Below are positions 11,808 through 44,200 of a DNA stretch of 44,200 nucleotides, in pieces (the stretch's first letter is position 1; each line of letters starts with the position of its first letter). The notes beneath the pieces were generated by a model. That model made no database searches. It was not told the origin of the DNA and saw nothing but the letters and a program-made list of their open reading frames with translations. The position numbers were made by a program, and so were the translations under genes. Source of the DNA: an uncultured Paraprevotella sp. (GTDB lineage Bacteria > Bacteroidota > Bacteroidia > Bacteroidales > Bacteroidaceae); contig CALUFQ010000024.1 of the NCBI GenBank assembly GCA_944319925.1, positions 1-44,200 of the forward strand, given 5' to 3'.

Positions 11808-11889
11808 CTTTGTTGCGATGGATCTCAAATCTGTCGCAGCATATCAGAGGGGTAGCATGAAACCGTTTCCCCACTGAATTTCTACTGAC
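11808..11889 (+). repeat. S module, copy 1
   Basis: About 80 bases that recur at 26417-26501: shared blocks include TTTGTTGCGATG, TCTGTCGCAGCATATCAG, GGGGTAGCATGAAACCGTT and CTGAATTTC. Neither copy is coding. Confidence 0.8.
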
Positions 11890-11922
11890 CCGGTTTAATG
11901 ACCGTTGAGTTTGCCATGCGGG

Positions 11923-11998
11923 GGTGTATCAAAACCTGCGAGAAGGAACTGCTTCCCTACAAGGCGGAGCAGTTCCTTCTCGCAAGTTTTGATACACT
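11923..11998. repeat. large palindrome with 29-bp arms
   Basis: Left arm 11924-11952 and right arm 11969-11997 are complementary at 28 of 29 positions, with a 16-base loop containing a fragment of the R module (CCCTACAAGGCGG). The ends (GTGTATCAAAA) match the ends of the element at 31313-31501. Confidence 0.85.
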
Positions 11999-14936: not shown

Positions 14937-15049
14937 GAAGCCAGAAGGGCGAAGATGGCTTCGGCGGCCTGAAACGCCCAAAGCCTGAAACGCCCAGTTC
15001 CAGCCGGGAACACCTAGTTCCAAGCACCTGAAGCAGGAACTGTTCCTAA
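14937..15049. other. gap after DUF721, no gene
   Basis: Contains a GAAGCCA...TGGCTTC inverted repeat (14936-14962) without a T-run, and short direct repeats of CCTGAAACGCCCA and AGTTCCA. No coding frame is convincing. It leads into the repeat cluster at 15050. Confidence 0.4.
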
Positions 15050-15127
15050 TCTTGGGGATTTAACAACTGACGAATATTTGTTTGTAATCGAATGTCTTGC
15101 TTCCTGTCACTTGCCCGTGCGGAGAAA

Positions 15128-15179
15128 AAACTCCTCCGCCTTGTAGGGGAGGTGGCTCGAAGAGCCGGAGGGGTTTCCC
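15128..15179 (+). repeat. R module, copy 2
   Basis: R module with inner hairpin GGCTC-GAA-GAGCC, a stem variant in which both sides differ from copies 1 and 5-7. Confidence 0.85.
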
Positions 15180-15196
15180 ACCCACGTGTCATTCCG

Positions 15197-15288
15197 CAAG
15201 GCAAACAAAAGGGGCGTTACGCCCCCGCAGGGGAAACAGGACGACTATTATGGCCACCGCACGGCGAACAGAAGGGGCGTTACGCCCC
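15197..15288 (+). repeat. P module array, three units
   Basis: Units centred on TTA at 15217, 15248 and 15280 (spacing 31-32). The first and third have the hairpin GGGGCG-TTA-CGCCCC (15211-15225 and 15274-15288); the middle one is decayed. Each follows an A-rich leader such as GCACGGCGAACAGAA. Confidence 0.85.
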
Positions 15289-15350
15289 CGTGGGTGTGAG
15301 ACCCCCTCCGCCCCTTCGGGGCTTGTCCCCCTGCGAGGCGGGACAGTTCT
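15289..15350 (+). repeat. Q module, copy 2
   Basis: Plus-strand copy with hairpin GCCCC-TTC-GGGGC and the edge GGCGGGACAGTTC. Confidence 0.8.
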
Positions 15351-15510
15351 TCCTGCCAGCTTCGACTGCCGACATTCAGAAGTTTGTAAAGGCAGGAACT
15401 CTGTATCAATCAATTCCTCAATTCGTTTTTCCAGATGATGTTAAATCCCCAAGAATGCGGGCTGTTCCCTGAAGCATCTGGTTTCAAGCGCAGGCATGCG
15501 GCATGTATTT

Positions 15511-25417: not shown

Positions 25418-25424
25418 CAGCCAC

Positions 25425-25526
25425 AAACGGGAAAGTCCTGCACGGCCAGCTCCCTTCGAATCCCCCAGGGCTTGATCGCAGCAAGGGTAGTTGGTTGTAG
25501 CGGCGCGATGCAGTAAGCTTTCCCAC
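25425..25526 (+). ncRNA. ffs: signal recognition particle RNA, small bacterial type
   Basis: About 100 nt that folds into one long hairpin: GGGAAAG (25429-25435) pairs with CTTTCCC (25518-25524) and CTGCA with TGCAG just inside. The tip has the conserved asymmetric loop strands CAGG (near 25466) and AGCA (near 25480) around a short stem-loop GCTTGATCGC, the SRP S-domain where Ffh binds. The tetraloop is not the usual GGAA. I recall this type of sequence from Bacteroides SRP RNAs. It is followed directly by tRNA-Thr and shares its promoter. Confidence 0.85.
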
Positions 25527-25528
25527 CC

Positions 25529-25602
25529 GCCTCTTTAGCTCAGTTGGCCAGAGCACGTGATTTGTAATCTCGGGGTCGTTGGTTCGAATCCGACAAGAGG
25601 CT
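25529..25602 (+). tRNA. tRNA-Thr (anticodon UGU)
   Basis: Complete cloverleaf: acceptor GCCTCTT with AAGAGGC, D stem GCTC with GAGC, anticodon loop TTTGTAA (anticodon TGT), T stem GTTGG with CCGAC around TTCGAAT. The anticodon stem CGTGA/TCTCG has a U-U mismatch at its third pair. CCA is not encoded. It reads ACA (and other ACN by wobble) for threonine. Confidence 0.95.
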
Positions 25603-31379: not shown

Positions 31380-31422
31380 TCACGTCCACAAAGACATAGT
31401 TTATGAGTGTGCCCGTGGGGGT

Positions 31423-31471
31423 GAAACCCCTCAGGCCCGTTGGGCCAGCTCCCCTACAAGGCGGAGCAGTT
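31423..31471 (-). repeat. R module, copy 4
   Basis: Inverted copy with hairpin GGCCC-AAC-GGGCC on the minus strand; outer sequence slightly different (GGAGCAGTT). Confidence 0.8.
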
Positions 31472-31501
31472 GCTTCTCGCAGGTTTTGATACACCCTCTT
31501 T

Positions 31502-34051
31502 CTAATCGAGGTCCACCACCGTGATGCCCGCCCCGCCGAACTGCACGTGTTCGTCGCGGCAACTTTTCACGCCGGGGACGGTTTGCAGGTATTGCCGGAT
31601 GAGGGTGCGCAGGATGCCGGAGCCCGTGCCGTGCAGGATGCGCACACGCGGAATGCCCAGCAGGATGGCGTCGTCGATGAAGTAAGTCACGGCGTTGATG
31701 GCTTCGTCGCCCCGCATGCCCCGCACGTCGATGTCCTGTTTGAAGTTCAGCTTTTTGTCATACACGGCATCTTGGGTCTGTTTGCTGAGATACGTGGCGG
31801 TTTGTATCTGCGCCTTGGGTTCGGGTGCGGCGGCACGTTCCAGCCGTTCGGTCTTCACGTTGGTGCGCATCATGCCGAAGGTGACGATGGCGTTAGCCCC
31901 ATTTATCTCTTCTATCCGTCCCACTGTCGTTTGCCCTTTGAGCCGCACCGTGTCGCCTGCCTGCAGGGGCTGTTCGGCCTGTCGTGCCGCGCGGGCGCCT
32001 TCGGCCAGCGGGTCGGTTTTCCCTTTTTGTTGTGCGGCCTTTTTCTCCTTGCGTTCGGCCTGCCTTTTCCGGCGTTCCTCCAACTGTTGCATCTTGCGGG
32101 CGATTTTCTCGTCCTCCTGCGCCTTGTCAAACGCTTCCACGGAGGTCTTGAAATCCTCCAGTTCCCGCCTTGCGCCTCGCGTCTTTTCTTTTTCGGCCTG
32201 TGCTTCGCGGATGGCCTGGATGGTATGTTCGATTTTGGCGTTCGAGGCTTTCAGCAGTTGTTCGGCCTCTTCTTTTGCCTTTTGCAGGATTTCTTTCCGT
32301 TCGCGTTGCAGCTCGTTGATTTCCGTTTCATAGCGGGCAATGGTCTTCTCCATTTCCTTTTCCCGCTGGTGGATGGTCTGCCGTTTGGTTTCCCAGTAGC
32401 GTTTGTCGCGCACGATGTCCTGCAGGTATTTGTCCGCGTTGATGTATTCCTTGCCCACGATGTCCGAGGCATCGGCAATCACGTCTTCAGGCAGCCCTAT
32501 CTTGCGGGCGATTTCCACGGCGAAGGAGCTGCCGGGGTTGCCGATTTGCAGTTGGAAGAGGGCCTGCATGTGCTGCCGGTCGTAGAGCATGGCACCGTTG
32601 ACCACCCCTTCGTGGTCTTCGGCAAAATGCTTCAGGTTCTGGTAGTGGGTCGTGATGATGCCGAACGCCTTTTTCTGGTTGAAGCGTTTCAGCACGGCCT
32701 CGGCGATGGCGCCGCCGATTTGCGGTTCCGTGCCGCCGCCGAACTCGTCGATGAGCAGCAGGCTGTTGCCGCCGCACGACTTCATCATGTTCTTCATGTT
32801 CAGCAGGTGGCTGGAGTAGGTGCTCAGGTCGTCTTCGATGCTTTGTTCGTCGCCGATGTCGATGAAGATGCTGCCGAAGATGCCCGTGCGCGAGTTTTCG
32901 CCGACGGGGACGGGCAGCCCGCATTGGAGCATGTATTGGATGAGGCCCACAGTCTTCAGGCACACGGACTTTCCGCCCGCGTTCGGGCCAGAGATGACGA
33001 GGATGCGCCGGCGGCTGTCCAGCTCGATGTCGAGCGGCACCACTTTCTTGCCGTGGCGCGCCAGCGAGAGTTGCAGCAGCGGGTGGCAGGCCATGGTCCA
33101 GTCGATGAGCGGCTTGCCTTTGATGTCGGGGGGGATGGCGTTGAACTGCCGGGCCAGGCAGGCTTTGGCACGGATGAAGTCTATTTCGGCCAGGAACTCG
33201 TAGGATTGCAGGATTTCCTCGTAAGAGGGGCGCACCTCGGCCGTGAACACCTGCAGGATGCGGATGATTTCCCGCCGTTCCTCGCCTTCCAGTTCCCGCA
33301 CGCGGTTGTTGGCCTCCACCACTTCCGTGGGTTCGATGAACACGGTGCGGCCCGTGGCCGACTCGTCGTGCACGATGCCTTTGATTTTCCGTTTCAGGGC
33401 CGGGGCGACGGGGATGACCAGCCGTCCGTCGCGCATGGTGGGTGCCACGTCCTTATCGACCACCCCGCTCTGTTGGGCATTGCGCAGGATGCTGTGCAAC
33501 GTGCGCGAGATGCTGCTTTCCGTGGCGGCCAGTTCCTGGCGGATGCGGGCCAGCTCCGGCGAGGCGGAGTCTTTGATTTTCCCGTACTTGTCAAGTATCG
33601 TGTCGATGCGCCGCACGAGTTGGGGGAAGGTCGCCACCCCTTCGGCCAGCCGGTGCAGGGCGGGGTATTCGCCCTGGTATGCTTCCGTTTCATCCCCAGC
33701 CTCTTCTTCGTCTTTTTCCTTGTCCAGGAAACTGATGATGTCGATGATGGTCGTCAGGGAGCGTTTCAGGTCGAACAGTTCCGTTTCGTCCAGGTAAGTG
33801 CCTTCGATGCGGATGCGCCGGATGGCCGGTCGCACGTCGTAGAAGTCCTGTTCGGGGAAATCCTGCCCGCTGTCCATGATGCGCAGAAACTCCCGTGTGT
33901 GTTCCTGCAGTTCGCGCAGGGGTGCGATGTCGGTGAGGAAGCGCATTTGTTCCACGCGTTCCCGTCCGAGAGGGCTGAGGCAGTGCCCGCCCAATATGGT
34001 GCGGATTTCGTCGAATCCGATTTTCTGTTCGAAGTTTTGTGGATAAATCAT
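31502..34051 (-). CDS. mutS2: endonuclease MutS2
   Basis: 849 aa. MutS2 is a MutS-like ATPase with a C-terminal nuclease domain; it suppresses recombination in some bacteria and splits collided ribosomes in Bacillus. Walker A GPNAGGKS (near 350), Walker B LLLIDEFGGGTEP (near 430), then a long charged coiled coil (about 520-640, many K/E/R) and a C-terminal Smr domain with DVRGMRGDEAI and RILHGTGSG. The start MIYPQNFEQKIGFDEIR is standard for the family. A -7 element is 24 bases upstream. Confidence 0.96.
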   Translation of the reverse strand: MIYPQNFEQKIGFDEIRTILGGHCLSPLGRERVEQMRFLTDIAPLRELQEHTREFLRIMDSGQDFPEQDFYDVRPAIRRIRIEGTYLDETELFDLKRSLTTIIDIISFLDKEKDEEEAGDETEAYQGEYPALHRLAEGVATFPQLVRRIDTILDKYGKIKDSASPELARIRQELAATESSISRTLHSILRNAQQSGVVDKDVAPTMRDGRLVIPVAPALKRKIKGIVHDESATGRTVFIEPTEVVEANNRVRELEGEERREIIRILQVFTAEVRPSYEEILQSYEFLAEIDFIRAKACLARQFNAIPPDIKGKPLIDWTMACHPLLQLSLARHGKKVVPLDIELDSRRRILVISGPNAGGKSVCLKTVGLIQYMLQCGLPVPVGENSRTGIFGSIFIDIGDEQSIEDDLSTYSSHLLNMKNMMKSCGGNSLLLIDEFGGGTEPQIGGAIAEAVLKRFNQKKAFGIITTHYQNLKHFAEDHEGVVNGAMLYDRQHMQALFQLQIGNPGSSFAVEIARKIGLPEDVIADASDIVGKEYINADKYLQDIVRDKRYWETKRQTIHQREKEMEKTIARYETEINELQRERKEILQKAKEEAEQLLKASNAKIEHTIQAIREAQAEKEKTRGARRELEDFKTSVEAFDKAQEDEKIARKMQQLEERRKRQAERKEKKAAQQKGKTDPLAEGARAARQAEQPLQAGDTVRLKGQTTVGRIEEINGANAIVTFGMMRTNVKTERLERAAAPEPKAQIQTATYLSKQTQDAVYDKKLNFKQDIDVRGMRGDEAINAVTYFIDDAILLGIPRVRILHGTGSGILRTLIRQYLQTVPGVKSCRDEHVQFGGAGITVVDLD

Positions 34052-34074
34052 GTCCTTTCCAAAGTTTGCGGGTG

Positions 34075-34082
34075 CAAAGTTA
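34075..34082 (-). promoter_or_regulatory. -7 element for mutS2
   Basis: TAACTTTG on the minus strand; no clear -33 box. Confidence 0.6.
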
Positions 34083-34140
34083 AGAAAAAATGGGGCATTT
34101 GGTTTAATCAGCCTGATAGGTATTTTGCCTAATTCGAACA

Positions 34141-34162
34141 CTTTCCATGAACTTTTGGAAAG
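34141..34162. promoter_or_regulatory. inverted repeat between mutS2 and the AraC-type gene
   Basis: CTTTCCA, 8 bases, TGGAAAG. Located in the divergent gap upstream of the regulator; could be an operator, but only position supports this. Confidence 0.25.
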
Positions 34163-34246
34163 CCTTTATGAAGAATCAGGTCAGTTCGTATGCGCAAACT
34201 TGCTTACTTTGCATTTTCAAAACAGTTGAGGTAAGAGGTAAAGAGA

Positions 34247-35140
34247 ATGAAAGAAGACGTTTGGTTGATTAATGGAGACTTTGGCGTGTCGCGCGAGCAT
34301 AAGGTGCTTGTTGATGATGGTATCTTGATGTTGAAGTCGTTGCCATCCGATGCACGTTCGGAATCGTCCAAGCCGCGCAAGATGGAATGGGTGGTGGTGT
34401 GTGTGCTCTCCAGCGGAAGTGCCGGCTGTGTCATCAATGGGGAAGAATGCACCTTGCATGCCTATGACATGCTTTTGGCTTTGCCCGGAACGGTATTGTG
34501 GAACAGGGAACGGTCGGCCGATTTGCTGATGGACAGCCTGTGCATCTCCCGGAAAATGTTGCAAGAGGCGTTGCCTTTTTCCATGTATAACTGGGACGTG
34601 ATGGCTTTCGTGGCCACGCATCCGGTGTTCAGCCTTTCGGAAGAGGAATACGCCCGTTTTTCTTTGTTCTACTCCCTTATGTTCGACAAGCTGAAACACC
34701 AGGACGAGGCGTTTTACAAAGAATCCATGCGGTGCCTGCTGAAGGCTTTCCTTTATGACTTTTCCAATGTCATCGCCCGTTTCATGCCGTCGCAAGGAAG
34801 TGTGCACTACTCGCAGGGGACGAACTTGTTCAAGCGGTTTCTCGACATGCTTGCTTCCACTCACCCCAAGCCCCGTACCGTGACGTTTTATGCGGAAAAA
34901 CTGAATGTCACGCCCAAATACCTGTCTGCCGTGTGCAAGAATGCGTCCGGCTACACCGCTTCGGATTTGATACACAAGGCCGTGACGAAGGAAATCGCCG
35001 ACCTCTTGTCGTATTCGGACAAGAGCATCAAGGAGATTATGGTGGAGATGGATTTCCCTTCGCTTTCTTTCTTCGGCAAGTATGTGAAGAAACATTTCGG
35101 CATGGGGCCGAAGGAGTTCCGCGCCAAGCGGTCAACCTGA
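34247..35140 (+). CDS. AraC-family transcription regulator
   Basis: 297 aa. The N-terminal part (1-180) is a cupin-like sensory domain (GSAGCVINGEECTLHAYDMLLALPGTVL). The C-terminal AraC domain (about 195-295) has two helix-turn-helix units: VTFYAEKLNVTPKYLSAVCK and IKEIMVEMDFPSLSFFGKYVKKHFGMGPKEFR. It probably activates nearby or distant genes; ligand unknown. The best -7 match is TTACTTTG (34204-34211), one base off. It is divergent from mutS2 and converges on the ZIP transporter. Confidence 0.94.
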   Translation: MKEDVWLINGDFGVSREHKVLVDDGILMLKSLPSDARSESSKPRKMEWVVVCVLSSGSAGCVINGEECTLHAYDMLLALPGTVLWNRERSADLLMDSLCISRKMLQEALPFSMYNWDVMAFVATHPVFSLSEEEYARFSLFYSLMFDKLKHQDEAFYKESMRCLLKAFLYDFSNVIARFMPSQGSVHYSQGTNLFKRFLDMLASTHPKPRTVTFYAEKLNVTPKYLSAVCKNASGYTASDLIHKAVTKEIADLLSYSDKSIKEIMVEMDFPSLSFFGKYVKKHFGMGPKEFRAKRST

Positions 35141-35204
35141 TTGTGCCCTTCCGCTTGGTGCACAAAACGGCCATTTTTGCTGCGGGGGACAGATAGTATG
35201 TTGG

Positions 35205-35360
35205 GGGGGATTTGTAATCCCCCGCAATGGAGTATCAGGATTTGTAATCCGCAAAAAACATACCTATTAAATATGGGCATTGTATTGTGTCTTTAGAAAG
35301 CCTTTTAGGGCTTGCGGATTCGGAAATCCGCCCCTCGTTTTGCGCCGGATTACAAATCCG
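35205..35360. repeat. G hairpin modules, four copies
   Basis: Stem-loops on a GGATT/AATCC core: 35205-35223 (8-bp stem GGGGGATT, loop TGT), 35238-35250 (loop TGT), 35314-35331 (GCGGATT with AATCCGC, loop CGGA) and 35346-35360 (CGGATT with AATCCG, loop ACA, inverted orientation). Outer pairs differ between copies but remain paired. Confidence 0.7.
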
Positions 35361-35377
35361 TCGCAGCGGAACCGCCC

Positions 35378-35407
35378 GCATGGCGAACGAAAGGGGCGTT
35401 ACGCCCC
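35378..35407 (+). repeat. P module, single copy
   Basis: CGCATGGCGAACGAAA then GGGGCG-TTA-CGCCCC (35393-35407), 2 bases from the stop codon of the ZIP gene. On that gene's strand the hairpin is followed by TTTCGTTCG, a weak terminator-like tail. Confidence 0.85.
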
Positions 35408-35409
35408 CC

Positions 35410-36192
35410 TTAACCTAACACCACGTCGAGCACCATCATCAGCGCGAACCCTGCGGCAAAGCCGATGGTGCCCAGGTTGGAATGCTTCCCTTGCGAGGCT
35501 TCGGGAATCAGTTCTTCCACGACGACATAAATCATCGCCCCTGCGGAGAAGGCCAACAAGTAGGGCAGGATGGGCGTCACATACGAAGCCAGCAAGATGG
35601 TCAGCACGGCACCCACAGGTTCCACGATGCCGCTCAATGTCCCGATGGCAAAAGCGCGGAGGCGGCTGTTGCCTTCGGCCCTGAGGGGCATTGACACGAT
35701 GGCACCTTCCGGGAAATTTTGGATGGCGATGCCCAACGAGAGGGCGATGGCACCCGCCATGGAGAGGACACCGCCTTCGCCTGCCGCTGCGGCCAGGGCC
35801 ACGCCCACGGCCATGCCTTCGGGCAGGTTGTGCAGGGTGACGGCCAATGCCATCATGCCGGTGCGCGAGAGGCGGCTGTGCGGCCCTTCGGGAGAAGAGC
35901 TGCCCAAGTGGAGGTGGGGAATCACGTGGTCCATCAGGAGCAGGAAGCCGATGCCGGCCAGGAAACCGCACACGGCGGGAATGACCCGTGCGGCTTCCGT
36001 GTCTGTCCCGCCCATCTCCATGGCGGGGATAAGCAGCGACCACACAGAGGCGGCCACCATGACTCCCGAAGCGAAGCCCAGCAGGATTTTCTGTACCAAG
36101 GCAGGTATCTGCCGTTTCATCAGGAACACGCAGGCTGCACCTAGCGTCGTGCCTGCAAGAGGTAACAGCAGGCCTATCGTCAGTCCGTTCAT
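35410..36192 (-). CDS. ZIP family metal transporter
   Basis: 260 aa with about eight membrane helices. The metal-binding helix motifs are HNLPEG (121-126) and QNFPEG (158-163), and a histidine-containing loop HVIPHLHLG lies between helices 3 and 4. It would import zinc or other divalent metals through the inner membrane, like ZupT. Upstream is an imperfect inverted repeat (GCCAATT...AATTGGGC at about 36247-36272) that might be an operator; no Zur box could be confirmed. Confidence 0.93.
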   Translation of the reverse strand: MNGLTIGLLLPLAGTTLGAACVFLMKRQIPALVQKILLGFASGVMVAASVWSLLIPAMEMGGTDTEAARVIPAVCGFLAGIGFLLLMDHVIPHLHLGSSSPEGPHSRLSRTGMMALAVTLHNLPEGMAVGVALAAAAGEGGVLSMAGAIALSLGIAIQNFPEGAIVSMPLRAEGNSRLRAFAIGTLSGIVEPVGAVLTILLASYVTPILPYLLAFSAGAMIYVVVEELIPEASQGKHSNLGTIGFAAGFALMMVLDVVLG

Positions 36193-36364
36193 GGTTGTGT
36201 CAGTTTGTCATTTGCCAGGCTAAGATACAAAAAAAGCGGGAAACAGCCAATTCGGCAATGGACAATTGGGCCAATGGGCTTCCCCTTCCAAATTCCTTAA
36301 AAAAGACTAATGCCAAGACGAATGCCGCCTTTTGGCGCGTATTCTAGAAAAAAATAACGGAATT
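36193..36364. other. divergent promoter region, ZIP and GH28-like genes
   Basis: Contains the imperfect palindrome GCCAATT...AATTGGGC near 36247-36272. A weak -7-like TATCTTAG lies on the minus strand near 36221-36228. No strong promoter for the plus-strand gene was found. Confidence 0.3.
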
Positions 36365-37801
36365 ATGCAAGGAAGATTTTTTGGAATGTTGTGCTTGTGC
36401 GGGGGGCTGCTGGGGCTTTCGTCGTGTATGCACGTGGAGGAAAAAAGGGCGGAGGCGAAGATTGTGACGGCTTCCGTGCCCAAGGAAATGTATTACAGGT
36501 ACCACAACGATGATTTCACCGTGCGTGTGCGTCCCGTCGGGGAAAAGGAGTGGACGGACTTGTATGAATATAAGGTGAAGGTCGATATGGATACCAATTC
36601 CGAGGCCACGATGGTGCAGTTTGATTTCTCCGGCGAGGTGGAGGTCTGTGTGCAGCTGAACAACGGCACACTGCGCGAGGCGGTGGTGCACCCGCTTTCG
36701 CGCGGCATACGCCCGCAGGTGGAAGGCAACAGTCTGACGTTCCGCCTGGACAAACCGCAGAAACTGTCGGTGGAGTGCAATGGCGACCGCCTGCATAACC
36801 TGCACCTGTTTGCCAACGCCTTGGAAACGGATGTCCCGAAGGAGGGCGACCCCGGCGTGATGTATTTCGGGCCGGGCATGCATGAGCCTACGGATGCGGC
36901 GACACGGACATTCCGTGTGCCGTCCCACACCACGGTCTATCTGGCACCGGGTGCCGTCTTGCGCGGGGCGTTGAACTGCGACAGCACGGAAGGGGTGCGC
37001 ATCTGCGGGCGCGGCATGATCTTGGAAGCGTTTCACGGCGTGTCGGCCAATTGGGTGAAGGATTTGACGGTGGAAGACATTGCCGTGGTGAATCCCCGCT
37101 ACAACACCATGACGGCGGCGGTGGCCGAGGGCGTGACGGTGCGTGGCCTGAAGTCGTTCAGCTACCAAGGCTGGGGCGACGGGCTTGATTTCTATTGTTG
37201 CCGCAATGTGCGGGTGGACGACGTGTTCCTGCGCAATTCCGACGATTGCATCGCCATCTATTCCCACCGTTGGGATTTCTATGGTGACACGGACAGCATC
37301 CTGGTGACCAATTCCACGCTGTGGGCGGATATCGCGCATGCCATCAACATCGGGACGCATGGCAACACGGCGACCGAGGGCGAGACCATCGAGCACGTGA
37401 CGTTCCGCAACATCGACGTGTTGGAACACGACGAGGATGACCGCGACTACCAAGGCGTGATGACCATCAACGCGGGCGACCATAACCTGGTGCGCCACGT
37501 GACGTTCGACAGCATAAGGGTGGAACACATTCAGGAAGGCCAGCTTTTCCACTTACGGGTGATGAACCTGCCACGTTACTGCACCGGCCCTGGCCGCCAC
37601 GTGGAACACATCACGTTCCGTAACATCTCCTATGCCGGAGGCAACGAGAATCCGTCGGTCGTGCAAGGTTATTCGCCCGAAGGCATGGTGCGCGACGTGA
37701 CATTCGAGAACGTGGTCATCGGCGGACGGCGCGCAACCTGCTTGGAAGACCTGCACTTGAAGGTGGGTGATTTCGTGGAAGGAATCCGCGTGGTCAATTA
37801 G
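36365..37801 (+). CDS. GH28-like parallel beta-helix lipoprotein
   Basis: 478 aa. Lipoprotein signal with lipobox GLSSC (Cys21). After an N-terminal beta domain (about 30-150) is a right-handed beta-helix of pectate-hydrolase type. GWGDGLDFYCC (about 266-276) and NSDDCIAIYSHR (about 291-302) correspond to the GH28 catalytic aspartates (DG...D and DDC), and IAHAINIGTHGN to the RGHGISIGS region, with Ala-His in place of Gly-His. It could cleave a polyuronide or similar glycan at the cell surface. GH49 or another helix family is possible. Start 36365 gives the lipoprotein signal. Confidence 0.8.
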   Translation: MQGRFFGMLCLCGGLLGLSSCMHVEEKRAEAKIVTASVPKEMYYRYHNDDFTVRVRPVGEKEWTDLYEYKVKVDMDTNSEATMVQFDFSGEVEVCVQLNNGTLREAVVHPLSRGIRPQVEGNSLTFRLDKPQKLSVECNGDRLHNLHLFANALETDVPKEGDPGVMYFGPGMHEPTDAATRTFRVPSHTTVYLAPGAVLRGALNCDSTEGVRICGRGMILEAFHGVSANWVKDLTVEDIAVVNPRYNTMTAAVAEGVTVRGLKSFSYQGWGDGLDFYCCRNVRVDDVFLRNSDDCIAIYSHRWDFYGDTDSILVTNSTLWADIAHAINIGTHGNTATEGETIEHVTFRNIDVLEHDEDDRDYQGVMTINAGDHNLVRHVTFDSIRVEHIQEGQLFHLRVMNLPRYCTGPGRHVEHITFRNISYAGGNENPSVVQGYSPEGMVRDVTFENVVIGGRRATCLEDLHLKVGDFVEGIRVVN

Positions 37802-37831
37802 GCCGCAGGCTGACTTTATGCGGAGAATCGG

Positions 37832-37884
37832 AAAACTCCTCCGCCTTGCAGGGGAGGTGGCCCGCAGGGCCGGAGGGGTTTCCC
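37832..37884 (+). repeat. R module, copy 5
   Basis: Inner hairpin GGCCC-GCA-GGGCC. Together with the 65-base linker after it and the P unit (37950-37964), it closely matches the block at 39136-39270. Confidence 0.85.
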
Positions 37885-37934
37885 CTGCACAAGAGTAACC
37901 TATTTTCTCAGCGTCATGCTTTCCCGTGCCTATC

Positions 37935-37964
37935 CGCATGGCGGAGAAAGGGTCGTTACGACCC
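37935..37964 (+). repeat. P module, GGGTCG variant
   Basis: CGCATGGCGGAGAAA then GGGTCG-TTA-CGACCC (37950-37964). It lies 14 bases from the ansA stop. Confidence 0.85.
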
Positions 37965-37977
37965 CGTGGGTGGTTTG

Positions 37978-39018
37978 TCATAGGGTGATTTCCCCGGCCA
38001 GGTTGGTAGCCATGAGACGCCGCACCTCTTCGGGTGTCAGTTGGTGTCCGAGGAGGAACATCAGTTTGGTGAGTGCGCACTCGGGGGTGCTGTCATAGCC
38101 GCTGATGACACCGGCTTCGAGGAGCTGACGCCCCGTCTCGTAGCGTTCCATCTCCACGCTGCCCGACTGGCACTGCGTGATGTTGATGATGACCACGCCG
38201 CGCCGTGTCGCCTCCTTGATGAGTTGGATGAGCCAGGGCTTCTGCGGGGCGTTGCCCGAGCCGAAGGTCTTCATGACCACGGCCTTCAGTCCGGGGGTGC
38301 GGAACACCGAGGAGATGATGCCTTCCTGGATGCCCGGGAAGAGGGTGAGCACCACGACGTTCGTGTCGAACAGGTAGTGCGCCTTGAGCGGCCGCGAGGG
38401 GTCGGGACGGCGGATGCGTTCCGGTTTGAACTTGATGTCGATGCCGCTATGTCCCAAGCAGGGGTAGTTGAACGACTTGAAGGCGTTGAACTTCTCCGCG
38501 TTGATTTTGGTGGTGCGGTTGCCGCGCATCAGGTCCCTTTCGAAATAGATGCACACCTCGGGCACGGCGGCGCGGCCGTCGGCATCCTTTGCGGCTGCGA
38601 TTTCGATGGCCGTGATGAGGTTCTCCTTCCCGTCCGTGCGGAGCATGCCCATGGGGAGTTGCGAGCCGGTAAGGATGACCGGTTTGCCCAGGTTCTCGAG
38701 CATGAAGCTCATGGCCGAGGCCGTGTAGGCCATGGTGTCCGTGCCGTGGAGGATGACGAAACCGTCGTATTGGTCATAATTCCGTTCCACGATGCGCACC
38801 AGCCGTGCCCAATGGTAAGGCTCCATGTCCGACGAGTCAATGGGCGGGTCGAAGGAATAGGTGTTGATGTGGCAGTTGAAGCGTTTCAGTTCGGGCACGA
38901 ACGTCAGCAGGTGGTCGAAGTTGAAGCTTTCCAAAGCCCCTGTTTCGGGATTTTCAATCATGCCGATGGTGCCGCCGGTGTAAATCAGTAAGATGGAAGG
39001 GGCGCGATGTGTCGTCAT
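37978..39018 (-). CDS. ansA: type I L-asparaginase
   Basis: 346 aa. It hydrolyses asparagine to aspartate and ammonia. Threonine nucleophile region YTGGTIG (Thr14), second site HGTDTM (Thr93, Asp94), and a lysine in the GMLRTDGKENL helix, all standard for the family. No signal peptide, so it is the cytoplasmic AnsA type. The C-terminal domain has the allosteric-type ITQCQSGSVEM stretch found in E. coli AnsA. Its -7 element is at 39047-39054. Confidence 0.95.
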   Translation of the reverse strand: MTTHRAPSILLIYTGGTIGMIENPETGALESFNFDHLLTFVPELKRFNCHINTYSFDPPIDSSDMEPYHWARLVRIVERNYDQYDGFVILHGTDTMAYTASAMSFMLENLGKPVILTGSQLPMGMLRTDGKENLITAIEIAAAKDADGRAAVPEVCIYFERDLMRGNRTTKINAEKFNAFKSFNYPCLGHSGIDIKFKPERIRRPDPSRPLKAHYLFDTNVVVLTLFPGIQEGIISSVFRTPGLKAVVMKTFGSGNAPQKPWLIQLIKEATRRGVVIINITQCQSGSVEMERYETGRQLLEAGVISGYDSTPECALTKLMFLLGHQLTPEEVRRLMATNLAGEITL

Positions 39019-39046
39019 TCCTTGATGTTTTAGTGCGTTCAGGATG

Positions 39047-39054
39047 CAAAATTA
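39047..39054 (-). promoter_or_regulatory. -7 element for ansA
   Basis: TAATTTTG on the minus strand, 28 bases before the start codon; no clear -33 box. Confidence 0.6.
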
Positions 39055-39135
39055 ACAAAAAAGCGTTTATGCCACTCCTTCCCGCCTTTTGTTTTCTTGC
39101 TTTGCCAGCTTCAGAGGGTGGGTTACAGGATTTGC

Positions 39136-39188
39136 AAAACTCCTCCGCCTTGTAGGGGAGGTGGCCCGCAGGGCCGGAGGGGTTTCCC
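39136..39188 (+). repeat. R module, copy 6
   Basis: Same inner hairpin as copy 5, followed by the same linker (GCACAAGAGTAAC...CAGCGTCATGC) and then P units. Confidence 0.85.
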
Positions 39189-39239
39189 GTGCACAAGAGT
39201 AACTTATTTTTCTCAGCGTCATGCTTTCCCGTGCCTATC

Positions 39240-39335
39240 CGCATGGCGAACGAAAGGGTCGTTACGACCCCCGCATGGCGAACGGAAGGGTCGTTACGAC
39301 CCCCGCATGGCGAACGGAAGGGGCGTTACGCCCCC
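39240..39335 (+). repeat. P module array, three tandem 32-bp units
   Basis: Each unit is CGCATGGCGAACGRAA plus a hairpin. Stems: GGGTCG/CGACCC at 39256-39270 and 39288-39302, GGGGCG/CGCCCC at 39320-39334. Spacing is exactly 32. The last hairpin ends 2 bases from the HAD gene stop. Confidence 0.9.
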
Positions 39336-39336
39336 C

Positions 39337-39759
39337 TCAGAACGGCCACCACCGTTTTTGGGGAGTGCGGGGGGCTTGTTCCTCCATCTCCTCTGTCAAG
39401 ATTTGCGCGAGCGACTTCCTCTCGTTGATGATGCGGTAAATCGTGCCCCAATCCGGCAGGCCGCCCAGGTTGCGGTCATCGATGAAAAGGTCAACTTTCA
39501 GCTTGCGGCTGTAGTGTCGGTTTTTCTCCGTGTCTTCTTCGGGGAAGTCTTTGTTCACGGCATAAAATTCCACGCCGCGCCGGCGGCACCATTCCACGGC
39601 CTCGTCCAGCAAGCGGCCTTCGCGCACGGTCCACAGGATGAGTTGGTGGCGGTCCTTGATGAGTTGTTTCAGCGTTTCGACAGCAAAGGGAAGCTCGCGC
39701 CCGATGTCCGGATAGCGGTGTTCCACGATGGTGCCGTCGAAATCCACGGCTATGACCAT
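39337..39759 (-). CDS. small HAD-superfamily hydrolase
   Basis: 140 aa. The N-terminus MVIAVDFDGTIVEHRYP carries the HAD nucleophile motif DxDGT (Asp6, Asp8). ILWTVREGR is motif II and the C-terminal DLFIDDRNLGG is the acidic motif IV. No cap domain is apparent, so the substrate could be large or phospho-sugar-like; unknown. ATG 39759 is chosen because longer frames add sequence from the promoter region. A -7 element is 28 bases upstream. Confidence 0.9.
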   Translation of the reverse strand: MVIAVDFDGTIVEHRYPDIGRELPFAVETLKQLIKDRHQLILWTVREGRLLDEAVEWCRRRGVEFYAVNKDFPEEDTEKNRHYSRKLKVDLFIDDRNLGGLPDWGTIYRIINERKSLAQILTEEMEEQAPRTPQKRWWPF

Positions 39760-39786
39760 ATCCTTTATATTATAATGATTATCCGG

Positions 39787-39794
39787 CAAAGGTA
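39787..39794 (-). promoter_or_regulatory. -7 element for the HAD gene
   Basis: TACCTTTG on the minus strand; no clear -33 box. Confidence 0.6.
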
Positions 39795-39869
39795 CGAAAA
39801 AAATGCGTTGCGGGAGGCTGGAAACGTTAAAAATGGCGGTCATTGTGATTTTTTCCAAAAAAAATATTT

Positions 39870-39897
39870 TTTGGTTCGGAAAATAAGTGTATTTTTG
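39870..39897 (+). promoter_or_regulatory. promoter of the 1224-aa protein gene
   Basis: TATTTTTG at 39890-39897 is a perfect -7 element. TTTG at 39870-39873 is 16 bases upstream, shorter than usual. Confidence 0.6.
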
Positions 39898-39952
39898 CTC
39901 TCACATAGAATTGTGAACTATTTATCGTTTTATTAACTTAATTTCTGGCAGA

Positions 39953-42900
39953 ATGAAAAACAGATTACTAGCAGTCATGGCTTTATGCTGTGCGACATCG
40001 GTTACGTCCCCCTTGTGGGCGCAGACCGAGTGGGCTGATCCTGTCGTGAAAATCTCCACACCCAATTTGGAGCAACATGAGGGGATTCAGCAGTTCTACA
40101 TCTACCATCCCGCTACGGGGCAGTTCGTGACCAACGGGAACGAAGCGGGCACACAGTTGAGCGTGGGAACCACCGGGCAGATGATTACGTTGGAATGGGG
40201 CGCAGAACGTCCGCCTTTGTATAATTCATCGGTGACGGTGACGGGCGAAGGCTGGAAGCTGAACATGTTGCAGGGTCCGACCAATAGCGGTTTCCATGAA
40301 ATCTTTGTGCGCGACGCGACAAGTGCTTTCGTGGATGCCAATGCCCAAGGGCACATGTTGTGGCAAATCCAGCCCCAAGGCGACCAGCTCTACCGCATCA
40401 AGATTGTGGACCAGGACACCAGCTTCGGCTTGGAGTCGGGCAACACGGTGACGATGAACGGCGTATGGGGTGTCATTGAGACTAGCACCGTCATCTATCC
40501 TTTCGCCGATCTGAACGGAGATCAATATGCCGGCGCGGAGATGGATTGGCAGTTCGTCACTCCCGAAGATTATGATGCCTATCAGGCACGCCTAGATTTG
40601 AAACCTATGTTGGAAGAAGCACGGGATTTGGGATTCGACGACGAGTTGGACGAATACACTGCGCTGTATAACAACCAGTCCGCCACGTCCGAAGACTTGG
40701 AAGCGGCTATTGCCGGATTGCCGATGGACATCATCCTGTGGCAGACCGGCGGGGCGAGCGAGACCTCTCCGGCCAATTTCACTCCGATTGTCGCGAATGC
40801 CGATTTCGCGGACAATGGCAACGGGTGGACGCTTACCAACATGAACAACGACCAGCACCGTGATCCGGCCGACCTCTATGAGGATCCCGAGGATGCCACC
40901 CACTTCTTGAACTATTTCTTGGAGGCATGGGTCGGCAGCGGCTCTGCGGAAAACCCGGCCAGCGTGGACGAGGGGCGCACGGTGCGTGCCGAACAAGCGT
41001 TGACAGGTTTGCCCGCAGGTGTTTACCGCCTTACGGCCGATTGTTTCGGTGTCATGCAGGCTACGGTGAGCACTTCTGCGGCGAATGGTCGCGGGGTCTA
41101 TCTCTTTGCCGGTGCCAAGGGGCTGGAGATGATTGCCGACGCACACACGCTGGAATTCTATGGCGACAACAACGACCGTCCGGTGCCGCGTCCGGTGTCG
41201 GTGGAATTTTATTCCCCGGATGGCACCATGACAATCGGTTTCAAGGCCGAGAACTCAAACTGTAACTGGGTGGGCTTCGACAACGTGAAGCTGGAATACT
41301 TGGGAGAAGGCTCGGGCGACATGACCATGGGCACCATGTTGCAAACGGTCGTGGACAATTTTGAAACGCAGATACAAGGCTACAGGGATAATAACTTGGT
41401 ATGGTCCGCAGCGGGTGAACAGCGTGCGAGCGAGCTGCTCGAGACGGCCAAGGCTGCAATCACCGTTCCGGAGAGCGACGACTCCTTGGCTTCCTTGGGC
41501 AATGCCTTGCAGGCTGAAATGGTTGCCCTGCAGGCTGACGTGGACGCTTACACGAGGCTGAACACTTTCCTTAACGAGGACGCGATGGAATATTTCAACG
41601 GAGAATACGGCAGTTATGCTTTGGAGGCATTGAACAACTACCTTCTGGGGTTGACCGACGAGTTGGGTAACTTGGCTTTCGACCCCGCTGACATCGACAG
41701 CGTGGAAATCATTGCCGACAGCCTCTACCAGGTGGGCGTTGAACTGGCTATCACCCAAGAAGGTGCCACGGCCGTGACCGGAATGGGTGTCAACATGGAC
41801 TTCACGGGAAGTGCCAATGGCTGGACCAAGACGGGGGCCAGCAAACTGGGTTATGGTAACAATACGGGCGAGGTGTTCCGTCAGAATCCAGACGGGGGCT
41901 TCGAGGTTTACCAGGAAATCACGGGGCTGCCTTCAGGTTCTTATAAGGTGACCGCGCAGGCATTCTATCGTCCTGCAGGCTATGCTGACGCGTCCAAGAC
42001 CTTCGATGCCGCAGACCCGCAGGCCGATGTGACGGCTTATTTGGATGTCAACGGCGCACGGACGAAAATTCACAGCTTGTTTGAAGTGACGTTCGACAGC
42101 AGCGAGGGCATGGCGGGTCGTTTCGCTACCATTTCGGACAGCGGCACGGAGTTGGACGGCAAGCTCGTGGCCGACGACTTGGCTTCCGCAGAGGCCGTGC
42201 TGACGGCTGGCGACCGCACGAACTATGAGGTGTCGGTTACCGGTTATGTGGGCGAGGACGGTGTGCTCCGTTTCGGTATCATCGCCGATGCGACTTCTTT
42301 GTCCAGCAGCTGGTGCCTGTTCGACAACTTCCGTGTGGAATACATGCCGGGTGACATGACGGGTATGGAGTTTGCCTTGCAGTCGAAGCGAAGCCAGGCT
42401 GAGGCCATGATGACTGCTGACATATTCTACACAGACGAATCCGAGACTGCTCTTTTGACCGCAATACAAAATGCGACCAATGCTTTGGATGGCGGGTTGA
42501 CGGATGAAACCTTTGTCGCAGCCAACAACGGGCTTGACGAGGCAATCACTTTGGCTACGGAGACCGATGAGACCGTGAAGTCGGTGGAAACTTGGTTTAA
42601 CGAATATGATGAAGTGTTGGCGGCTATTGAAGCCGGGGATGACAAGAACAATTATGACCCGGAAAAGGTTGCAGATCTCGAAGGTGCCGTGGCTGCCCAA
42701 ACAGACTATGTGGACAAGTATGAGATTTATGCTGATTTGGCCGAAGTCAACCAGGCTATCCTCGACATGAACAATGCTTACGGCGCAATGGTGCAGTCTC
42801 TATTCGACTTCGCGAATGTTTCCAAGGAAGATTCGACGGATGTATCTATGTTGTTGCGTAACCCGCGCTTGCAGAAAGTGGTGAGCGGAGTGGATCAATC

Positions 42901-43627
42901 GTCTCATGAATATTGGGAGCATAATCCTGCTTTGACCAACGAAAATGCTACGGCGGATTCTTTGTTCGAATACTTTAACACGAAGGAATTCGATTTCCAT
43001 CAGACTGTATATAACTTGCCGCAAGGATATTACTCTTTGTTTGTATCCAGCTTCTACCGTTACGGTGACATGACACCTGCCGGCGTGGCTCGTCGCGACG
43101 GGGAGGAGCAATTGTTCGCGCAGGTTTATGCAACTACGGAAGAAAAGGATTATTTCACGCCGATTGTTTCCATCTACGAGCATGTGATGGATGCGAAGTT
43201 CACGTCTTCGAGTGCCGTGCTGCCGGACAGCCTCTTCACGTACATGGAGCCGCAGGCTTACTATTGCGTGGCTAATGCGGTGGATGACGCCAACGTGGCC
43301 TTTAACTTCGGCTTCTATCGCAACGAAGTATCCTTCTATGTGAAGGAAGGTGGTTCCGTACAGCTGGGTATCCGCAAAGCCGATGGTGTGACCAACGACT
43401 GGTGTCCGTTTGATGACTTCTCATTGATTTACTGGGGCGACGGTGATGAAAATGCTCCGACCGCAGTGGACGATGTGATTTCCGAAAATGCGGCTATCGT
43501 GTTGGCTACCGAATGGTACACCATTGACGGCATGCGGGTTGCAGAACCCAAGAAGGGTGGTATTTACATTCGCGTGAACAAGATGAGCGACGGTTCGAAG
43601 AAAGCCATGAAGGTAATGGTGAAATAA
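39953..43627 (+). CDS. large secreted protein with three carbohydrate-binding-like modules
   Basis: 1224 aa. Signal peptide 1-24 (ends LWAQ). An N-terminal beta-rich domain (about 25-215) resembles a beta-trefoil lectin. Then come three similar modules, at about 278-450, 608-800 and 966-1165, each beginning NxDF/NPRL-like, containing GLP.G.Y or LPQGYYS, and ending in a W/C..FD[ND]..[LV].Y signature (NWVGFDNVKLEYL, SSWCLFDNFRVEYM, NDWCPFDDFSLIYW). Helical FIVAR-like spacers separate them. The last 50 residues (WYTIDGMRVAEPKKGGIYIR...KVMVK) resemble a T9SS sorting domain. No catalytic domain is recognised. It may bind host or plant glycans. Confidence 0.85.
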   Translation: MKNRLLAVMALCCATSVTSPLWAQTEWADPVVKISTPNLEQHEGIQQFYIYHPATGQFVTNGNEAGTQLSVGTTGQMITLEWGAERPPLYNSSVTVTGEGWKLNMLQGPTNSGFHEIFVRDATSAFVDANAQGHMLWQIQPQGDQLYRIKIVDQDTSFGLESGNTVTMNGVWGVIETSTVIYPFADLNGDQYAGAEMDWQFVTPEDYDAYQARLDLKPMLEEARDLGFDDELDEYTALYNNQSATSEDLEAAIAGLPMDIILWQTGGASETSPANFTPIVANADFADNGNGWTLTNMNNDQHRDPADLYEDPEDATHFLNYFLEAWVGSGSAENPASVDEGRTVRAEQALTGLPAGVYRLTADCFGVMQATVSTSAANGRGVYLFAGAKGLEMIADAHTLEFYGDNNDRPVPRPVSVEFYSPDGTMTIGFKAENSNCNWVGFDNVKLEYLGEGSGDMTMGTMLQTVVDNFETQIQGYRDNNLVWSAAGEQRASELLETAKAAITVPESDDSLASLGNALQAEMVALQADVDAYTRLNTFLNEDAMEYFNGEYGSYALEALNNYLLGLTDELGNLAFDPADIDSVEIIADSLYQVGVELAITQEGATAVTGMGVNMDFTGSANGWTKTGASKLGYGNNTGEVFRQNPDGGFEVYQEITGLPSGSYKVTAQAFYRPAGYADASKTFDAADPQADVTAYLDVNGARTKIHSLFEVTFDSSEGMAGRFATISDSGTELDGKLVADDLASAEAVLTAGDRTNYEVSVTGYVGEDGVLRFGIIADATSLSSSWCLFDNFRVEYMPGDMTGMEFALQSKRSQAEAMMTADIFYTDESETALLTAIQNATNALDGGLTDETFVAANNGLDEAITLATETDETVKSVETWFNEYDEVLAAIEAGDDKNNYDPEKVADLEGAVAAQTDYVDKYEIYADLAEVNQAILDMNNAYGAMVQSLFDFANVSKEDSTDVSMLLRNPRLQKVVSGVDQSSHEYWEHNPALTNENATADSLFEYFNTKEFDFHQTVYNLPQGYYSLFVSSFYRYGDMTPAGVARRDGEEQLFAQVYATTEEKDYFTPIVSIYEHVMDAKFTSSSAVLPDSLFTYMEPQAYYCVANAVDDANVAFNFGFYRNEVSFYVKEGGSVQLGIRKADGVTNDWCPFDDFSLIYWGDGDENAPTAVDDVISENAAIVLATEWYTIDGMRVAEPKKGGIYIRVNKMSDGSKKAMKVMVK

Positions 43628-43662
43628 GTTTTATCATATTTTTTAATAGGTTCATTTAATGT

Positions 43663-43696
43663 GGGGGAAGTCGATGTGAATCGCCTTCCCCTTTTT
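43663..43696 (+). terminator. intrinsic terminator after the 1224-aa protein gene
   Basis: GGGGAAG (43664-43670) pairs with CTTCCCC (43685-43691), with an inner CGAT/ATCG helix and a GTGA loop, followed by five T. Confidence 0.85.
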
Positions 43697-43784
43697 CTGT
43701 TGCGTGGGATTTGTAACTCCACTCTTGCTGTGGAGGATTTGTAGGGACAGTAGAGATTTAGTGGTGATTTACTAAATTCTGCGC

Positions 43785-43831
43785 GGGACGTAACGCCCCT
43801 TCTGTTCTCCATGCGGCGGCCATAATGGCCG
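43785..43831 (-). repeat. P module pair, with a third stem variant
   Basis: On the minus strand: CGGCCA-TTA-TGGCCG (43817-43831) and GGGGCG-TTA-CGTCCC (43785-43799, one G-T pair). The TTA centres are 32 apart. Each is preceded by CGCATGGAGAACAAAA or similar. Confidence 0.85.
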
Positions 43832-43857
43832 TTTTGTTCTCCATGCGGATGGCCCAA

Positions 43858-44040
43858 CTGTCCCGCCTTGCAGGGGGACGAGCCCCGAAGGGGCGGAGGG
43901 GGTCTTACGCCCACGTGAACAACACCGGACGCATCTGCGGATAACATAAACGGGTCGGAAAAAGAGGAAAGTCACTCTTGTGCATGGGAAACCCCTCCGG
44001 CCCTTCGGGCCACCTCCCCTACAAGGCGGAGGAGTTTTGC
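43858..44040 (-). repeat. 183-bp long repeat, copy B (Q copy 3 + linker + R copy 7)
   Basis: Same length and orientation as 11609-11791, differing at 4 positions by eye. The R hairpin here is GGCCC-GAA-GGGCC. No gene is contained. Confidence 0.9.
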
Positions 44041-44200
44041 AGCCGACCCCTGCATTGTTGATTAACAAACTAAAAAACGGGATATCACCAAAAACTGCCG
44101 CATGGGAAAAACTGTCCCGCCTCGCAGGCTACCCATTATACACATCTTTTTAACATTTGCACATTACTGAAACACAATTATTTGCTTGTGTGTTTAAAGA
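44041..44200. other. A/T-rich tail, probable upstream region of the next gene
   Basis: Contains a partial Q module on the minus strand (AACTGTCCCGCCTCGCAGG, 44110-44128) and then about 70 A/T-rich bases. No gene begins inside the window. Confidence 0.4.

Follow-up and report, generated by a model that had tools for sequence, protein, structure and literature searches.

Why the two arms of a short tandem hairpin should change together from copy to copy is the question raised by positions 39239-39335 (+ strand) of the window, the whole stretch of 44,200 nucleotides that was analysed, which is contig C24 of a 3.11-Mb Paraprevotella draft genome (G000, the own genome; G010 is the genome of a sister species). 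Three 32-bp units, here called P units, lie there head to tail, each consisting of the leader CCGCATGGCGAACGRAA, a 6-bp stem arm, the loop TTA, and the second arm. An earlier note on this DNA had described three exact tandem copies and took the joint changes of both arms for selection on a fold or for an amplification process that keeps palindromes. The tandem is present and the 6-bp stems around TTA at 39256, 39288, and 39320 are confirmed, but the copies are not exact: the leader of unit 1 (39239-39270) ends in GAACGAAA, with CGAA, those of unit 2 (39271-39302) and unit 3 (39303-39335) end in GAACGGAA, with GGAA, and unit 3 carries the stem GGGGCG/CGCCCC instead of the GGGTCG/CGACCC of the other two.

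Further units are found elsewhere in the window, where the named stems at 15211, 15274, 35393, 37950, and 43817 all proved perfect. Two units stand alone on the + strand, one at 35376-35408 with GGGGCG/CGCCCC and one at 37934-37964 with GGGTCG/CGACCC, the latter 3' of an S-arm module; positions 37825-37952 largely recur at 39129-39257. Three units at 15194-15289 (+ strand) carry GGGGCG/CGCCCC, the degenerate CGACTA/TGGCCA, and again GGGGCG/CGCCCC. On the - strand, 43784-43848 holds two units: the one at 43816-43848 has CGGCCA/TGGCCG, and its neighbour, at about 43784-43816, is of the G class and has a broken stem. Read on the + strand, this stem (43785, GGGACG/CGCCCC) joins the two at about 15248 and 26546 that were the only broken ones noted before. 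The leader 10-mer CATGGCGAAC occurs at 13 sites in the window with at most one mismatch, against 4.4 expected, and the window contains 24 perfect 6-bp stems around a 3-base loop, of which seven have TTA (+ strand), every other loop occurring at most twice. A spacing of six bases between CATGGCGAAC and the stem, as assumed before, matched nothing as an exact pattern, the real gap being four bases. A tandem of another kind, the 21-bp unit TTTCGGGGCTCGGAATTTTTT in three copies, occupies 59-120.

Genome-wide, the exact 10-mer was found 57 times, compared to two for its reversed control. A covariance model, R1, built from 23 units and giving rough E-values, yielded at least 150 scored matches in 88 clusters of the own genome, from 3356 first-look candidates; 37 of the clusters hold more than one match, and none is of mixed orientation among the matches listed. 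The stretches around all R1 clusters outside the window were fetched, and a 17-base leader profile blind to the stem revealed 205 units of at least 16 bits in 254,755 fetched bases, while the reversed-sequence control gave zero. These 205 units come only from stretches picked by model matches, plus the window, so that genome totals are lower bounds. They form 93 arrays of one to eight units (39 single, 21 double, 19 triple, and 14 longer), neighbours being spaced by 31-33 bp in 101 of 112 cases. Using stricter filters, R1 returned at least 124 matches in G000 and at least 108 in G010, but at most four in each of 59 other genomes among the matches listed, only eight of the 59 having any at an E-value of 0.01. 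A strict pattern run against a collection of 84,980 genomes, from which the own genome is possibly left out, hit the records of one MAG only. The P-unit family is a lineage-specific expansion. At locus L143 of another genome (G008, contig C73), at about 1774-2532, three single P-like units stand about 360 bp apart in like surroundings and account for three of the at least four matches in G008; they are possibly an older form. No published description of these Paraprevotella elements was found among the literature matches listed; a search on Paraprevotella and MITE returned listed matches that nowhere name Paraprevotella, and an ISAon1 query returned nothing.

The stems of these units fall into three main haplotypes, GGGTCG/CGACCC, GGGGCG/CGCCCC, and CGGCCA/TGGCCG. 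A first alignment of 23 units appeared to argue for selection that maintains the hairpin as an RNA or DNA fold, be it a regulatory RNA, a stabiliser of mRNA ends, or a protein site, with compensatory stem changes: 94.9% of its cells are paired, it outscores arm shuffles and slid registers by far, and 25 cells changed on two sides compared to 9.5 in shuffles. The rows had, however, been fetched through one leader 10-mer and represent few stem haplotypes, and the signal is gone after the leader-only scan, haplotype-wise permutation, and comparison of orthologs. Among the 205 leader-defined units, counted in the register that favours pairing, 93 stems are perfect, 57 have five pairs, and 55 have fewer, so the earlier list of exceptions understates the broken stems: in the stretches fetched, 112 of 205 are short of one or more of the six Watson-Crick pairs. 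Five or six pairs are nevertheless kept in 150 of the 205 units, which speaks for a selected fold. Hybrid stems are among the imperfect ones, GGGTCG/CGCCCC in 12 units and GGGGCG/CGACCC in six.

Covariation, the check proposed at the outset, was run as mutual information and permutation, leaving out G000 units that were out of register (offset not 0), and pair-specific compensatory substitutions did not emerge. Among 106 distinct units, the column pairs 27-32 and 18-27, both unpaired, rank first and second of 496, followed by 23-27 (paired) in third place, 18-23 (unpaired) in fourth, 18-32 (paired) in seventh, and 21-29 (paired) in thirteenth. Covariation equally strong between unpaired columns argues against a selected fold; the ranking is the pattern expected from whole-hairpin blocks. 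Within haplotypes, both species together show 124 one-sided departures, seven two-sided ones with pairing, and one two-sided one without, while permuting right arms within haplotypes gave means of 4.3 paired (P = 0.12) and 4.4 unpaired; this test covered 153 of 163 distinct units, ten lying more than three bases from every haplotype being dropped. Taken alone, G000 has 80 one-sided and one two-sided departure (four of its 106 distinct units, more than three bases from every haplotype, being dropped), and G010 has 54 one-sided, six two-sided paired, and one unpaired. Within haplotypes, stem sites deviate at a rate similar to that of loop sites and of leader sites that are not diagnostic, the mean deviation for stem, loop, and leader being 0.028, 0.016, and 0.024 in the C class and 0.040, 0.048, and 0.032 in the G class. 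As a side observation, the one-sided departures in G000, which are not independent events, comprise 29 G-T and 14 A-C mispairs on the + strand, possibly a strand bias of mutation or of tolerance.

Folding of RNA gave a divided picture. Shuffled sequences fold less well than the window array on both strands (z -4.6 for the -, -2.3 for the +) and less well than a single unit read on the - strand (z -2.2), which is in favour of a selected fold. For a single unit read on the + strand there is no such gain (z -0.4), and for 15194-15289 (- strand) no clear one (z -1.5). No Rfam family lies at the units, the only window matches being SRP RNA, a TPP riboswitch, and tRNA. The Bacteroidales small SRP RNA is located at 25422-25602, with the tRNA directly after it, and the TPP riboswitch at 2133-2224. 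With departures mostly one-sided, the top couplings unpaired, and stems as variable as leader and loop, the part of the earlier note that proposed selection on a fold is not supported, and we consider such selection very improbable.

Transcription termination offers another role for the hairpin, as the - strand of many units reads as a GC-rich 6-bp stem followed by TTTT, so that the units could be tandem intrinsic terminators (hairpin, then TTTTGTT) on that strand. Units with an AAAA leader resemble a terminator there, and a scan of 34000-44200 flagged one unit, at 43815-43833, as terminator-like. The same scan, though, counted 13 terminator-like sites against 12.0 in shuffles, hence no excess, and leaders with GGAA, CGAA, or CAGAA break up the T run, as in each of the three units at 39239-39335. 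By crude ORF calls, genes run into the - strand in 24 and into the + strand in 32 cases among 51 arrays, so that no - strand preference is apparent; in this count, a flank call was missing for 38 of the 89 arrays, and 13 were located within a called ORF. A terminator function is therefore quite unlikely.

If selection does not keep the arms paired, DNA template switching across the hairpin might do so, copying one arm from the other and restoring palindromes; such a mechanism has been described for RNA stems (PMC8794818). Two-sided paired alleles (CAGCCA/TGGCTG, CGGTCA/TGACCG, GAGTCG/CGACTC, and GGGACG/CGTCCC) do stand beside the main haplotypes, and there is one two-sided unpaired case where permutation gives 4.4. 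The seven paired cases against one unpaired lean towards palindrome restoration at P 0.12, an excess that is not significant. The loop TAA, the inverse of TTA, occurs in 6 of 205 units, yet is only one base from TTA and proves nothing. With 112 of 205 stems imperfect and hybrids persisting in both species, any restoration must be slow. Palindromes may be weakly favoured, G010 showing more sign of this than G000, and a few events may have restored them, but as the source of the stem pattern we regard template switching as unlikely.

What the units do over time can be followed between the sister species, whose clear orthologous loci share about 91-98% identity across long flanks. In about ten orthologous unit pairs, compared by eye at loci fetched in both genomes (L095/L197 and others being left out of the unit-by-unit comparison), not one two-sided change with pairing kept in both species was seen; units changed on one side or lost pairing, which again speaks against a selected fold. 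The window units at 15194 and 15257 (GGGGCG/CGCCCC) correspond to GGGTCG/CGTCCC and GGGTCG/CGCCCC in G010, and the middle unit of 15194-15289 shows a one-sided difference at two pairs. The unit at 35376 is identical in G010, as are both units of L129/L206; L070/L209 has one identical unit and one differing in leader and one arm, and at L071/L205 the number of units differs and both arms differ without keeping the pairing. The flagged array itself has three units in the window and a single hybrid, GGGTCG/CGCCCC, in G010. Since this hybrid has the CGAA leader tail and GGGTCG of window unit 1 and the CGCCCC of unit 3, the array seems to have contracted there, the join falling within the hairpin. 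The flanks of this array agree less well than elsewhere, the left one being shared over only about 15 bases near the unit and the right one showing 80.8% over 1517 bases. A given leader is found with more than one stem: GGAA arrays are mostly CGGCCA at contigs C84 and C86 and GGGTCG at C34, and the GGAA-leader units of the window have GGGTCG, then GGGGCG.

Many P units lie inside MITE-like mosaic elements with two types of TIR, type I having GGAACTGTTCC at its ends and type II GGGTCAGTAGAAATT. The three units at 15194-15289 belong to a complete type I element of 433 bp at 15036-15468 (+ strand), also found in the sister species (L195), with a left TIR at 15036-15065 (GGAACTGTTCCTAATCTTGGGGATTTAACA), a right TIR at 15439-15468 (GGAACAGCCCGCATTCTTGGGGATTTAACA on the - strand), and the 8-bp target-site duplication (TSD) CTGAAGCA on both sides, at 15028-15035 and 15469-15476. 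These 30-bp type I TIRs lie outside two modules, an upstream one ending in GCCGGAGGGGTTTCCCACCCACGTATCATT and a downstream one starting with GTGGGTGTGAGACCCCCTCCG, which by eye is an imperfect inverted copy of the first. Young type II elements are 365 bp long, reach from GGGTCAGTAGAAATTCAGTGGGG to CCCCACTAAAAATCTACTGAGCC, and contain a single unit near the right end. In the window, a type II-like repeat at 43744-43766 (+ strand, GGGACAGTAGAGATTTAGTGGTG), assigned by resemblance, lies beside the units at 43784-43848, its partner end not being found, and a mosaic copy at 11869-11891 (- strand) matches TCAGTAGAAATTCAGTGGGG exactly over 20 bases (11869-11888). No clear P unit was seen in the 330 bases inspected beside the latter repeat; a degenerate P-like unit (CCGCATGGCAAACTCAACGGTCATTAAACCGGG, - strand, about 11889-11921) abuts it, as if the type II element had landed in a P unit. 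A 30-bp inverted repeat (GGGTGTATCAAAACCTGCGAGAAGGAACTGCT), almost perfect, occupies 11922-11997 and has relatives at 31417-31502; it appears to be a small mobile palindromic element of a third kind. No recognisable complete element surrounds the arrays at 35376, 37934, and 39239. Directly 3' of many P arrays, in both sister genomes, we also observed a dispersed repeat of 600-700 bp starting near AAAATCAGGATGTCATGAAATGC, for example at about 5776-6490 of L209 and at about 20 loci of the own genome, such as 1523-2222 of L070.

Within two mismatches, TCAGTAGAAATTCAGTGGGG has 40 sites in the genome and its control none. The 34 fetched loci of G000 and G010 contain 39 TIR pairs, 28 of type I and 11 of type II, some of them overlapping, and perfect 8-bp TSDs flank ten of the 39, compared to 6 of 1482 mismatched flank pairs given the same boundary slack. 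The ten represent nine independent sites, because the window element and L195 are one ancestral insertion, and by coordinates all ten contain P matches; the other 29 pairs lack a perfect TSD, for which nesting or decay is assumed. The perfect-TSD elements span 365-611 bp, are mosaic inside, and showed no transposase gene; the 126-aa ORF of the window element, the one of 39 elements that was scanned, matched no Pfam family. With TIRs at both ends, a target-site duplication, and a short length without a transposase gene, these elements are MITEs in form. The ends of several G000 contigs (C8, C10, C34, C47, C52, C79, C81, C97, and others) lie inside near-identical type II elements, by which the draft has thus been broken.

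Insertions also differ between the sister species. The type I element at contig C30 of G000 (L060) is absent from G010 (L212), whose empty site has flanks of 92.7% and 93.7% identity that overlap by eight bases at a single target copy, the target being ATAATGAC on both sides in G000 and AAAATGAC once in G010. The interval that in L104 of G000 holds a four-unit type I element is occupied in G010 (L216) by a type II element of 365 bp flanked by a TSD of its own, TTTTTTGT, the two being compared by shared interval and not by exact base of insertion. For the type II copy at L108, no empty site was found in G010 or G008 upon searching its 761-bp left flank, of which 35 bases matched in G010 and nothing in G008.

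As for the enzyme, the genus has an insertion sequence of the ISAon1/ISL3 family whose TIRs are matched by those of type II. In G008, L249 encodes a 333-aa ISAon1/ISL3 transposase ORF (PF01610 at 3e-52) bounded by the type II-like TIRs GGGGGCAGTAGAAATTCGGTGGGG and GGGGGCAGTAGAAATTTAGTGGGG, with one mismatch each, and L237 has an ISAon1 gene with a stop, flanked by TIRs with three mismatches each. The starting peptide of L237, MENDYLNMLASIVLPTQ, is shared by L177, a contig end of the own genome at which a type II TIR is followed by the start of an ORF, and a second copy of this TIR and ORF start, at L179, is interrupted by a type II element. Of these ORF starts, the 26-residue one resembles the ISAon1 N-terminal region with 12.5 of 55 bits (E 0.16) and the 43-residue one gave no family match, while a 71-residue fragment elsewhere in the own genome hits the ISAon1 transposase at 5e-28 with 98 bits against a cut-off of 250. 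An intact ISAon1 or ISL3 transposase was not found in the own draft, only fragments; the family reaches an E-value of 0.001 or better in 12 of 18 genus genomes and exceeds its cut-off in two of the 18, the own genome not among them. At L238 of genome G001, which has an intact ISAon1 gene, the 4-kb locus contains no such TIR within five mismatches, and inspection of L237 and L249 by eye revealed no TSD. Given that the own genome yielded only transposase fragments, and given the missing TIR in G001 and the missing TSDs, we only infer that type II elements are mobilised in trans by an ISAon1-type enzyme. As drafts break at these repeats, the youngest copies and any intact helper insertion sequence may hide at contig ends. 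A transposase with type I ends was not found.

The short, high-copy palindromes also recall REP sequences moved by a RAYT (IS200/IS605-like) transposase, an origin that we hold to be hardly conceivable here and rejected, as Y1_Tnp (PF01797) is absent from the own genome, which is 99.4% complete, while being found in 5 of 14 control genomes. The tags GTAG or CGTC described for the foot of REP hairpins (PMC3733652) are missing by inspection from the unit consensus, and orientation is never mixed in clusters among the matches listed.

In our view, it is highly probable that the P unit is a variable-number internal minisatellite of non-autonomous, MITE-like mosaic elements and that the paired stem changes mostly reflect copying and swapping of whole hairpins. 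An ISAon1-type transposase would move type II elements in trans and another transposase those of type I, each jump carrying the whole array, hairpins included. At each site, the array would then gain or lose units by replication slippage or unequal crossing-over, and whole hairpins would pass between leaders as blocks, which is why both arms would change together, while an exchange inside a hairpin would leave hybrid, mismatched stems. The pattern needs no cellular function of the hairpin, and none was detected. The palindrome-keeping amplification suggested at the start thus survives in outline, with transposition, array turnover, and hairpins behaving as whole blocks, but block movement alone does not account for three perfectly paired founding haplotypes. 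A bolder version, which is possible though doubtful, sees the transposon-borne hairpins as exchangeable cassettes, in which slippage or template switching swaps stems, makes hybrids at contractions, and sometimes restores palindromes; if true, replication errors directed by hairpins would be naturally recorded in the arrays, and false covariation would arise with no selection on a fold.

For the discovery of structured RNAs by covariation in repeat families, this is a warning, as seemingly compensatory stem changes can stem from whole-hairpin copying in a mobile minisatellite. In addition, an abundant MITE family of Paraprevotella is now described; its TIRs are of two types, an ISAon1 sequence is plausible as its helper, and its polymorphic P arrays separate two sister species.

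Among known systems, ISAon1-family insertion sequences (ISL3 group; NCBIfam NF049917, Pfam PF01610) have TIRs like those of type II, as at L249 and L237, and complete type II copies here have an 8-bp target duplication; unlike these insertion sequences, our perfect-TSD elements are mosaics of 365-611 bp in which no transposase gene was seen. REP and BIME sequences share with P units the short high-copy palindromes in mosaics, whereas P units have no tag, no RAYT, and no mixed orientation, and many lie inside TIR-bounded elements. Streptococcus pneumoniae, the host of BOX, belongs to another phylum than Paraprevotella. In BOX (PMC3049150), end modules surround a variable number of tandem boxB units, as here, and array length varies between strains, a likeness that rests on the described architecture. 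BrickBuilt of Porphyromonas gingivalis (PMC4596501) is like the P elements a MITE of Bacteroidales, and it likewise contains a minisatellite that varies in unit number, modules serving as leader and tail, TIRs, and predicted stem-loops, with few relatives outside its species. It differs in its repeat unit (23 nt compared to about 32 nt), its copy number (19 elements compared to 93 arrays), and its TIRs (AGACCTTTGCA-like, of the IS5 group, compared to GGGTCAGTAGAAATT, ISAon1/ISL3, and GGAACTGTTCC), and in Paraprevotella every unit by itself forms a near-perfect hairpin, with target duplications and one empty site also observed. Identity with BrickBuilt was rejected, the spacing being 31-33 bp and not 23 and the TIRs being different. 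The Paraprevotella elements are MITEs with an internal minisatellite, of the kind of BrickBuilt and, by its described architecture, BOX, with BrickBuilt as the nearest described kind.
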